From an uncultured Eubacterium sp. (GTDB taxonomy: Bacteria; Bacillota_A; Clostridia; Lachnospirales; Lachnospiraceae): a stretch of 18,142 nt of DNA. The notes below the pieces were generated by a model. It searched no databases, was not told the DNA's origin, and saw only the letters and a program-made list of their open reading frames with translations. The position numbers and the translations under genes were made by a program. The DNA is taken from the NCBI GenBank assembly GCA_947653505.1, contig CANTHI010000012.1, forward strand, positions 1 to 18,142, in the 5' to 3' direction. Below, in pieces: positions 2,157-5,359 of the stretch (positions are counted from its first letter, which is position 1; the number at the start of each line of letters is the position of its first letter).

Positions 2157-3371
2157 TTATTCCTTCATCGAATCAACAATCGCATCTGCCAGTGCCTCAA
2201 GCTCAATATTTTTATCCGCCCCCATAGAAGAAGCAATACTCAGCCGTTCATTTAAGACTGTCATATTCTTCAGTTCCTCATCGATAAATTTCTGCATCAG
2301 ATCACCGGACTTGCATGCCCAGGAGCCGTTTTCAATCAGGGCGAACGTACGGTTCTGCATATTCAGTGCCTTCATATCCATCAGGAAATTGTGCATCACC
2401 GGATAGATACCCAGATTATAAGTCACGGATGCCAGCACAATATGACTGTATTTAAAAGCGTCGGAAATCAGGTAGGATACATGCGTATTAGACACATCAT
2501 GCACCTTTACGTTAGTACAGCCTTTTTCGCACAGTTTGCCGGCAAGTGCCTGCGCAGCGCCTTCCGTGTTGCCGTACATGGAAGCGTAGGCAATCATTAC
2601 GCCTTTTTCTTCTGGCTCATAACGGCTCCATTTGTCGTATTTATCGATAAAATATCCGAAATTCTCACGCCATACCGGACCGTGGAGCGGGCAGATATAA
2701 CGGATCTGGTCTACAATGCCGCCGGCTTTTTTCAGCAGCAGCTGGATGTGCGGTCCGTATTTGCCTACGATATTTACAAGATAGCGGCGGGCTTCGTCGA
2801 GCCAGTCGCGGTCAAAGTTTACTTCGTCTGCAAACAGTCTGCCGTCCAGTGCGATAAAGGAGCCAAATGCATCCGCGGAAAAGAGTACGCCGTTGGTCGT
2901 GTCAAATGTTACCATAGCTTCCGGCCAGTGTACCATCGGTGCGGCTACGAAGGTAACTGTATGGGTGCCAAAGCAGTGGGTGTCGCCTTCGGCTACCGTG
3001 ACGCATTCGTGCTGGTCCGGATGGAAGCCAAACTGACGCATCAGCATAAAAGCTTTTTCGGTGGAGATCACTTTTACCTGCGGATAGCGCAGAAGAATCT
3101 GTTCCACGCAGGCGCCGTGGTCAGGCTCCATATGGTTGACAACAAGCCAGTCAAGCGGGCGGCCGTCGAGCAGATGATCCAGATTTTCCAGAAGCTGGCG
3201 GCAGGCAGACCAGTCTACGGTGTCAAACAGTACCGTCTGCTGATCTAACAGTAAATATGCGTTGTAGCTTACACCGTATGGAATCGGGTGTATGTTCTCA
3301 AATAAGTGGAGCCGGTGGTCGTTCGCGCCGACCCAGTACAGATCCTGTGTTATATTTCGTACACAATACAT
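2157..3371 (-). CDS. fprA: A-type flavodiiron protein (FprA; O2/NO reductase)
   Basis: The 404-residue protein has an N-terminal metallo-beta-lactamase-fold diiron domain and a C-terminal flavodoxin domain. Diiron ligands are visible as H80-x-E82-x-D84-H85 (NHMEPDHGA), H148 (MVHWPE), D167 (SADAFG) and H230 (CPLHGPVWR). The FMN phosphate loop is ASMYGNTE at about 263-270. Length and layout match class A flavodiiron proteins, cytosolic enzymes of anaerobes that reduce O2 to water and/or NO to N2O with electrons usually delivered by rubredoxin. There is no fused rubredoxin or flavin-reductase domain here; the rubredoxin is on the neighbouring upstream gene product. A modest AGGA precedes the ATG. 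The 74-bp gap to the upstream gene has no clear promoter or terminator, so co-transcription is likely. Whether it prefers O2 or NO cannot be told from sequence alone. Confidence 0.93.
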   Translation of the reverse strand: MYCVRNITQDLYWVGANDHRLHLFENIHPIPYGVSYNAYLLLDQQTVLFDTVDWSACRQLLENLDHLLDGRPLDWLVVNHMEPDHGACVEQILLRYPQVKVISTEKAFMLMRQFGFHPDQHECVTVAEGDTHCFGTHTVTFVAAPMVHWPEAMVTFDTTNGVLFSADAFGSFIALDGRLFADEVNFDRDWLDEARRYLVNIVGKYGPHIQLLLKKAGGIVDQIRYICPLHGPVWRENFGYFIDKYDKWSRYEPEEKGVMIAYASMYGNTEGAAQALAGKLCEKGCTNVKVHDVSNTHVSYLISDAFKYSHIVLASVTYNLGIYPVMHNFLMDMKALNMQNRTFALIENGSWACKSGDLMQKFIDEELKNMTVLNERLSIASSMGADKNIELEALADAIVDSMKE

Positions 3372-3445
3372 GTGATGTCCTGCTACTTAACGTCTAAATA
3401 GCTTTTCCTTTCCTAAATTTTTATATGGGATACTGACGTCGTCTG

Positions 3446-5359
3446 TTAAGCTTCGATAAACTGGTCTTTTCCTTCTGCACATTCCGGACATACCCAGTCT
3501 GGCGGCAGCTGTCCGAACAGGGTGCCGGCAGCGATCTGTGCGTCTTCGTCGCCGTTTTCAGGAATGTATTCATAGCCGCATCCGCCGCAGACATAGCGTT
3601 TGCCGATCGGTTCCGGCTTTGGTACTGGCGGGCGTTTCATTTTGACCATCGGCGGAGCCGGCTGTTTTTCTCCGGTATCCAGAGCTTCGGTTAAGAGCGG
3701 CAGTATTTCGTTTACATCACCGATGATGCCGTAGTCACAGTTTTTAAAGATCGGAGCGTTGCCGTTTTTATTGATCGCGACGATCGTGGAGGCGTCCTTG
3801 ATGCCTTTCAGGTGCTGGGTAGCGCCGGAGATTCCGCAGGCTATGTACAGATTGCCGGTAAATTTCTGGCCGGACATGCCGACATAGCGGTTTAATGGTA
3901 CGTATTTCAGTGTCTCAGCGACCGGACGGGACGAGCCGATGGCTGCGCCGGCTGCTTTGGCAAGATCTTCGATCAGCTTCATATTTTCTCTGGAGCCGAT
4001 GCCTTTTCCGGCTGAGACAACACGTTCTGCCTGTGCGATTGGTGTATCGGCGGCAATGCCTACGGTAAAATCATGCCCGTCTTTTTTCAGCGCTTCTACG
4101 AGAGCAGTTACTTTATCGCCCGCGGCGCCGTCACGGAAGATATGGCCTTTGCGCACGCCTGTGACAGGAGCCGGTTTTTTGGCTGCGGAGCGGCTGCCGC
4201 CTCCGGAGTTTCCTGGCATTTTTCCGATTAAATTCGCTGCTATGACAACGCGCTGGATTTCGTTTGTGCCTTCATAAATCGTTGTGATTTTGGCATCCCG
4301 GTACATACGTTCCACATCCATACCTTTTAAGAAGCCGGAGCCGCCAAAAATCTGCAGGGCGCTGTTTGTGACTTCCAAAGCGATATCAGACGCGTACATT
4401 TTGGCCATTGCGGCTTCCATCGCGTATGGTTTGTGCTGTTCTTTTAATTCAGCAGCGGAATAGACTAAAAAGCGTGCGCAGCGCAGTTTTGTCGCCATAT
4501 CTGCCAGTTTAAAGGAGATGCCCTGCTGTGCGGCAATCGGTTTGCCAAACTGGTTACGCTCTTTTGCGTATGCAAGCGCCTGTTCAAAAGCGCCCTGCGC
4601 GATGCCGAGAGCCTGTGCGGCAATGCCGATGCGTCCGCCGTCCAGTGTTGCCATAGCGATTTTAAATCCCTCGCCTTCTTTGCCAAGCAGATTTTCCTTC
4701 GGGACTTTTACATCATTAAAAATAAGCTCGGCTGTCGTAGAAGAGCGGATGCCCATTTTGTCATAATGGTCGCCAAATTCAAAACCGTCCCAGCCTTTTT
4801 CCACGATAAACGCAGAAATGCCGCGCGTGCCGATATCCGGTGTCGTTACCGCAAATACGACATAAGTATCTGCCTTCGGGGCATTTGTGATGAAAATCTT
4901 GCCGCCGTTTAACAGATAGTAGCTGCCTTTGTCAAGGGCTGTTGTCTCCGTACCGCCTGCGTCTGAACCCGCGTTTGGCTCTGTCAGTCCAAAGGCGCCG
5001 ATTTTTTCTCCCTTTGCGAGCGGAACGAGATATTTGCGCTTTTGTTCTTCATTGCCGAACGCAAAGATCGGAAACGAGCCTAATGAGACATGGGCAGATA
5101 AAATAACGCCGGATCCGCCGTCTACTCTGGATAATTCCTCGACCGCGATCGCGTAGCTGTTAATATCGAGTCCGGCACCGCCGTATTCCTCCGGATAAGG
5201 GATACCCATCAGGCCCATTTCCCCGAGTTTTTTTACGGCTTCGTCAGGAAAACGGTTTTCCTGGTCTAACGAAAAGGCGATCGGACGGATTTCTTCCTCG
5301 GCAAAGGCACGGATTTTTGCCCGCAGCTGTTCTTGTTCTGGTGTTGTCTGGAATAACAT
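3446..5359 (-). CDS. Acyl-CoA dehydrogenase / EtfA FAD domain / rubredoxin fusion
   Basis: A 637-residue three-part protein. Residues 1-380 are a full acyl-CoA dehydrogenase: signature GLTEPNAGSDAGG near 124-136, FGGSGFLKGMDVERMYRD near 338-355, and the catalytic-base glutamate E363 in IYEGTNEIQR, as in short-chain/butyryl enzymes. A Gly/Ser/Lys/Pro linker (381-400) leads to an EtfA-like C-terminal FAD domain (about 402-560) with SSRPVAE, YVGMSGQKF, LYIACGISGATQHL and YGIIGDV. A second Pro-rich linker leads to a rubredoxin (588-634) with Cys591/Cys594 and Cys624/Cys627. The strong RBS AAGGAGG precedes ATG 5359. It probably oxidises an acyl-CoA and passes electrons through two flavins to the rubredoxin iron, and from there to the FprA encoded next. 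No EtfB partner is in the window. Related fusions occur in clostridia, but the substrate is unknown. Confidence 0.92.
   Translation of the reverse strand: MLFQTTPEQEQLRAKIRAFAEEEIRPIAFSLDQENRFPDEAVKKLGEMGLMGIPYPEEYGGAGLDINSYAIAVEELSRVDGGSGVILSAHVSLGSFPIFAFGNEEQKRKYLVPLAKGEKIGAFGLTEPNAGSDAGGTETTALDKGSYYLLNGGKIFITNAPKADTYVVFAVTTPDIGTRGISAFIVEKGWDGFEFGDHYDKMGIRSSTTAELIFNDVKVPKENLLGKEGEGFKIAMATLDGGRIGIAAQALGIAQGAFEQALAYAKERNQFGKPIAAQQGISFKLADMATKLRCARFLVYSAAELKEQHKPYAMEAAMAKMYASDIALEVTNSALQIFGGSGFLKGMDVERMYRDAKITTIYEGTNEIQRVVIAANLIGKMPGNSGGGSRSAAKKPAPVTGVRKGHIFRDGAAGDKVTALVEALKKDGHDFTVGIAADTPIAQAERVVSAGKGIGSRENMKLIEDLAKAAGAAIGSSRPVAETLKYVPLNRYVGMSGQKFTGNLYIACGISGATQHLKGIKDASTIVAINKNGNAPIFKNCDYGIIGDVNEILPLLTEALDTGEKQPAPPMVKMKRPPVPKPEPIGKRYVCGGCGYEYIPENGDEDAQIAAGTLFGQLPPDWVCPECAEGKDQFIEA

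Follow-up and report, generated by a model that had tools for sequence, protein, structure and literature searches.

Introduction

Butyryl-coenzyme A (CoA) oxygen oxidoreductase (BOOR) is an enzyme of Fusobacterium nucleatum encoded by a two-gene unit, one gene specifying a fusion (BCR) of butyryl-CoA dehydrogenase (Bcd), the C-terminus of the electron transfer flavoprotein (ETF) subunit EtfA and a rubredoxin, and the other a flavodiiron protein (FDP; FN1423) (PMC12288474). It was published in 2024 by Bystrom and Wolthers (as cited in PMC12288474 and PMC12630350), and the pair is also named FN1423-FN1424 (PMC12630350). In the parts of PMC12288474 drawn on here, the fusion is reported to use butyryl-CoA and to send its electrons to the flavodiiron O2 reductase, the complex is described as containing four of each subunit and having no nitric oxide (NO) reductase activity, and BOOR is said to be encoded by many Firmicutes, gut butyrate producers among them. 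A preprint, in the portion cited, places the BOOR homologues of the gut Clostridia Roseburia inulinivorans, Eisenbergiella tayi and Faecalibacterium prausnitzii next to an Rrf2 regulator gene (PMC13404960). Here we describe a gene pair of this type in an uncultured Eubacterium sp. of the family Lachnospiraceae (assembly GCA_947653505.1, contig CANTHI010000012.1), within an 18,142-nucleotide stretch of DNA that was analysed as a whole and is called the window below.

The bifurcating Bcd-EtfAB complex (5ol2) has in common with the fusion of the window a Bcd part and the EtfA C-terminal FAD domain, but it also has EtfB and the EtfA N-terminal domain, both of which the fusion lacks. The FprA-type class A FDPs (1ycf) and rubredoxin:oxygen oxidoreductase (1e5d) have the same domains and ligands as the window FDP; there too a rubredoxin is the donor, but it is a polypeptide of its own that receives its electrons from NAD(P)H, whereas in the window it is fused. 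The closest system is F. nucleatum BOOR, which, compared by architecture and gene order, matches the window pair in its domain order and adjacent FDP gene, although it comes from another phylum. The gut Clostridia homologues have the same gene pair as the window but, as described in PMC13404960, are linked to Rrf2, a linkage seen in none of eight near relatives of the window.

The fusion and FDP pair is real, well conserved and already described as BOOR; it is not new, and any novelty of the chain proposed in an earlier reading of the window (the original prediction) is forestalled by the 2024 publication. Very probably, by analogy with F. nucleatum, the pair is an O2 sink in which butyryl-CoA electrons pass via the fusion to the FDP, coupled to butyrate metabolism. 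The results of this analysis itself, reported below, are the architecture, the catalytic residues, the conserved pairing of the two genes and the presence in relatives of ETF and acyl-CoA dehydrogenase genes apart from the fusion.

The fusion protein and its flavodiiron partner

The fusion carries five Pfam domains, each above its curated cut-off: Acyl-CoA_dh_N (residues 6-118), Acyl-CoA_dh_M (122-217), Acyl-CoA_dh_1 (229-377), ETF_alpha (441-521) and Rubredoxin (588-634). Its layout is a butyryl-CoA dehydrogenase-like part (~1-380), a linker, the EtfA C-terminal FAD domain (~437-562), a second linker and the rubredoxin, so that one polypeptide holds all the parts joined in BCR. Glu363 (E363) is the E of an IYEGT motif, and the rubredoxin cysteines are C591, C594, C624 and C627. 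The best match of known structure is 5ol2_C (E 1.8e-144), presumably Bcd from the Bcd-Etf complex of Clostridium difficile. With a threshold of E 0.01, the fusion gave no match to PF01012, the ETF domain that forms EtfB as well as the N-terminal half of EtfA and in which the second FAD/NADH site presumably lies; the fusion hence has neither EtfB nor the EtfA N-terminal domain of bifurcating Bcd-EtfAB.

The neighbouring FDP contains only ODP/metallo-beta-lactamase and flavodoxin domains and all seven diiron ligands (H80, E82, D84, H85, H148, D167 and H230) of the pattern that we assume for these proteins, which places it in class A; assignment to the flavorubredoxins was rejected, as there is no rubredoxin match within the 404-amino-acid protein. 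Its best match of known structure is 1ycf (E 3.7e-50), labelled a nitric oxide reductase and presumably Moorella FprA. The FDP gene is adjacent to the fusion gene and co-directional, 74 bp away, as in BOOR, and the original prediction of an acyl-CoA dehydrogenase/EtfA/rubredoxin fusion directly upstream of fprA in the same direction is borne out by the domains, E363 and the four cysteines (Table 1).

Table 1. Coordinates of features in the window and in rearranged loci of relatives (locus numbers prefixed L)
Feature	Position	Strand	Basis or genome
BCR-type fusion, acyl-CoA dehydrogenase + EtfA FAD domain + rubredoxin	3446..5359	(-)	Open reading frame (ORF), 637 aa, Pfam domains
Class A flavodiiron protein (FDP/FprA), 404 aa	2157..3371	(-)	ORF, domains, diiron ligands
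Gap between fusion and FDP genes, 74 bp	3372..3445	(-)	
Likely promoter of pair: TTGACA, 17 nt, TATATT	5461..5489	(-)	Consensus match, conservation in chosen relatives
Box ~TTAGT-AAAAT directly after -10	5441..5458	(-)	Conserved in chosen near relatives
Gene upstream of fusion, MurE-like by eye	5607-7079	(+)	
48-codon ORF directly after FDP gene	1922-2068	(-)	Ribosome-binding-like site by eye
YhcG/DUF1016 nuclease-like gene, split into two overlapping ORFs in different frames	394-1493	(+)	
EtfA FAD domain + rubredoxin protein, 259 aa, without dehydrogenase	L113:5538-6317	(+)	G430
BOOR-type FDP, 70% identical, 11 bp after EtfA-rubredoxin gene	L113:6329-7675	(+)	G430
Full fusion, 74% identical, without FDP in 12.4 kb examined	L115:6877-8823	(-)	G526
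Bcd-EtfA fusion, 561 aa, without rubredoxin, no FDP in 14 kb examined	L116:6386-8071	(+)	G100
BOOR-type FDP, 82% identical, two large genes replacing fusion upstream	L114:3725-4939	(-)	G406

Pairing of the fusion and FDP genes

A scan of the sequence collection confirmed 517 relatives, many of them perhaps plain acyl-CoA dehydrogenases, and the best 80 loci were used. The match spans query residues 1-636 or 1-637 in all of these except L080, in which it ends at residue 619 together with the contig. At 76 loci the contig continues for at least 466 bp past the fusion, and all 76 have an FDP gene downstream on the same strand; outside this count are L003, L042, L069 and L080, whose contigs stop after a further 2-89 bp, while L013, L023, L043 and L059, whose contigs break off partway through the FDP, are counted as having it. 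The gap between the genes, stop codon included, ranges from 16 to 571 nt and is at most 60 nt in 66/76; the six gaps above 100 nt may hold small ORFs.

At wider scales the fusion is patchy. The family sample was drawn from the family of a Lachnospiraceae isolate (G006, the same as L008), and this centre genome is counted in both the family and the phylum samples by construction; more generally the named contigs and genomes overlap (L004, for example, is G003). With E thresholds of 1e-160 for the fusion, 1e-100 for the FDP and 1e-35 for the EtfA-rubredoxin adaptor, the fusion was found in 17 of 348 family genomes, with an FDP match adjacent in 16 of the 17 (compared by eye; the exception is G526), and a match was found in 6 of 398 phylum genomes, five of the six being full fusions with an adjacent FDP and the sixth the rubredoxin-less protein of G100. 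An association of the two genes by chance was rejected on the pairing in 76/76 loci and 16/17 family genomes, which together also answer the call of the original prediction for a survey of fusion-fprA co-occurrence and the objection, anticipated there, that fusions might occur mostly without fprA nearby. The FDP itself is far more widespread (232/348 family genomes versus 17/348 for the fusion), so most FDPs of the family sample occur without the fusion. Of the listed FDP matches that reach at least 64% identity, 16 lie beside a fusion and one (G430) beside an EtfA-rubredoxin protein; two further FDPs at this level, in G406 and (as a partial match) G691, belong to genomes with neither.

Catalytic residues were compared over 101 loci, of which 100 have a fusion-type match (98 distinct sequences, L101 being the same place as L115, and L066 and L067 having identical fusion DNA) and 94 an FDP match; the set leaves out L095, as well as L081, L087 and L089 as repeats of L008, L004 and L078. 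E363, the four cysteines, the seven diiron ligands and Tyr266 of the FDP are invariant wherever covered.

The other redox genes were searched in 13 relatives and in eight near relatives (G001-G008), both sets hand-chosen and not random. ETF domains occur in 13/13 of the relatives and separate acyl-CoA dehydrogenases in 8/8 of the near relatives; the fusion therefore appears to add to EtfAB and not to replace it. A non-fused rubredoxin is present in 9/13, so that the absence of a separate rubredoxin, as originally expected, holds in just 4/13 (G001, G003, G004 and G324, which appear to have the fused one alone). Each of the 13 has two or three FDP-like matches, and 12 have one of BOOR type. At L117:10187-11392 (-), the BOOR pair is faced by another FDP of class A type, with 56% identity.

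Likely promoter and regulator genes

No terminator-like sites are listed on the minus strand between 1900 and 5800, and we infer that the fusion and FDP genes form one transcription unit. For the likely promoter, the window was compared with 17 near relatives chosen from the 80 loci (L013 and L016 lie outside the choice), the TTGACA-like site whose downstream hexamer was most like TATATT being picked at each locus; in this selected evidence TTGACA is found in 17/18 and TAT at -10 in 17/18. The box directly after the -10 hexamer is a possible operator, and an Rrf2 operator was considered. Among 16 loci, seven of them Rrf2-linked (L083, L084, L088, L089, L090, L097 and L100; G608 was outside the set), a like box was found only in L090, before its Rrf2 gene, in an upstream search that used the TTGACA-type promoter pattern and not the box itself.

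Of 27 genomes with the fusion that were searched, eight (G079, G304, G608, G624, G641, G658, G683 and G701) have an Rrf2-family gene as its immediate upstream neighbour, as do 0/8 of the near relatives G001-G008; the contigs of G002 and G669 offer just 324 and 82 bp upstream, too little for such a gene to show.

Proposed electron chain and its alternatives

Modelled on the F. nucleatum enzyme, the dehydrogenase domain would oxidize butyryl-CoA, or a closely similar short-chain acyl-CoA, to the enoyl-CoA, and the electrons collected on its FAD would move to the second FAD of the polypeptide, in the EtfA domain. From there they would go singly to the rubredoxin domain and on to the neighbouring FDP, which would use its FMN and diiron site to reduce O2 to water; a separate Bcd-EtfAB would remake butyryl-CoA. 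Activity, direction, complex formation and O2 over NO as the acceptor are predicted here from that reported enzyme. The flow from acyl-CoA through FAD, EtfA FAD and rubredoxin to O2, already proposed in the original prediction, is what PMC12288474 reports for the F. nucleatum enzyme of this architecture. With the pair, the gut-type anaerobe probably burns off traces of O2 using butyryl-CoA electrons.

Several observations weigh against an O2 sink built from this pair. Its parts can exist separately, with a fusion lacking the FDP in G526, one lacking both rubredoxin and FDP in G100, and a close FDP lacking the fusion in G406 and, judged by coordinates, in G691. In alignments counted by eye, Asp53 of the FDP falls at the position of E. 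coli Asp52 and is thus the E. coli-type residue, while Tyr266 falls at that of E. coli Ser262. The residue aligned there is Tyr271 in the Entamoeba FDP, which is selective for O2, and Ser262 in that of E. coli, which is selective for NO, but the replacement Ser262Tyr is reported to have left the selectivity of the E. coli protein unchanged (PMC13133992, in the part cited), so that Tyr266 is a weak sign of O2 selectivity.

Of the alternatives, the one that survives best, though still unlikely, is that the same electron wire serves another acyl-CoA substrate, such as propionyl-, isobutyryl- or aryl-propionyl-CoA. It is favoured by the NCBIfam comparison, in which the fusion reaches the curated cut-off in none of the 25 families listed (of 31 matched), the best match among those listed being acryloyl-CoA reductase AcrC, at 495 of 640 bits; against it, the closest solved chain, 5ol2_C, is one that we take to be a Bcd. 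The F. nucleatum fusion, moreover, is reported to use butyryl-CoA, according to the cited part of PMC12288474.

A reversed chain, in which reduced rubredoxin would drive the fusion to convert crotonyl-CoA to butyryl-CoA without bifurcation, would fit the Bcd-EtfA parts without an O2 reductase in G526 and G100, but it is very improbable, since the gene consistently next to the fusion encodes a terminal oxidase, the FDP, and since relatives have ETF and acyl-CoA dehydrogenase genes of their own that would serve the reductive direction. We give equally little credence to an FDP acting mainly as an NO reductase: its six best solved matches (1ycf and E. coli flavorubredoxin entries) are labelled nitric oxide reductases and Asp53 corresponds to E. 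coli Asp52, whereas Tyr266 is, weakly, of the O2-selective type, and the F. nucleatum complex is reported to lack NO reductase activity (PMC12288474).

The weakest alternative, in which the fusion would bifurcate electrons from NADH and pass them to the FDP, is scarcely credible: the one point in its favour is the presence of an EtfA-type FAD domain, and the fusion, having no PF01012, lacks a second FAD/NADH site of the known ETF type, while separate ETF-domain genes occur in 13/13 relatives. Of the original interpretation, the electron chain to O2 and the gene pairing are supported; its NO sink, its bifurcation of NADH and its missing separate rubredoxin are not.

Rearranged forms in relatives

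The rearranged forms are possibly less known than the pair itself. In G430 the EtfA FAD domain and rubredoxin make up a protein of their own, which shares 54% identity with the corresponding stretch of the fusion; its gene is followed by a BOOR-type FDP gene and preceded by that of a Crp-type regulator, and no dehydrogenase gene lies beside it within the 12 kb examined. This genome encodes three full-length acyl-CoA dehydrogenases as separate proteins, with 46-53% identity to the dehydrogenase domain of the fusion. The stand-alone form was found in 1 of the 18 family-sample genomes with any match and in 0/398 of the phylum sample, where all six matches fall within fusions already counted.

A protein database search with the G430 protein, cut off at E 1e-20, returned 333 proteins. 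Among the 120 matches listed there are 15 clusters with the two domains only, 254-260 aa long and aligning with 99-100% of the query at 66-95% identity, one of which holds 1062 member sequences; these clusters make an assembly accident unlikely. Many of the other listed proteins may be contig-end pieces of full fusions, and the search carried no genomic context. In searches of open-licence PubMed Central papers, most of them judged from the listings, no prior account of an EtfA-rubredoxin protein without the dehydrogenase was found; the wording there may differ.

In G526 the full fusion is followed downstream by a 271-amino-acid ORF and a guaA-like gene (by eye), and in G100, which has the fusion without rubredoxin, both FDP-like matches are distant (28% identity). 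Because such rearranged forms keep them apart, dehydrogenase, adaptor and oxidase appear to be separable. We suggest, tentatively and as somewhat doubtful, that the EtfA-rubredoxin part may be a detachable electron adaptor, and BOOR one of a wider set of oxidases made of an ETF-type adaptor and an FDP.

Other features of the window

A promoter-like site at 2143-2115 (-) precedes the 48-codon ORF that follows the FDP gene. In the split YhcG gene, positions 4-88 of PF17761 are matched in one ORF, and positions 91-137 together with YhcG_C in the other.

Implications

To what is known of BOOR the survey adds the tightness of the linkage, the patchiness of the fusion (17/348 in the family, 6/398 in the phylum) and the rare rearranged forms. 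The detached EtfA-rubredoxin adaptor is a lead worth following: if the adaptor reading is true, the separate acyl-CoA dehydrogenases of G430 could feed O2 reduction through the stand-alone protein. A link between butyrate and O2 has been made for F. nucleatum (PMC12288474) and proposed for gut Clostridia (PMC13404960), in the parts of these accounts cited here. In the window pair, too, the butyrate chemistry of gut anaerobes would be tied to the removal of O2, a matter of consequence for their survival when traces of O2 are present and for butyrate yield.

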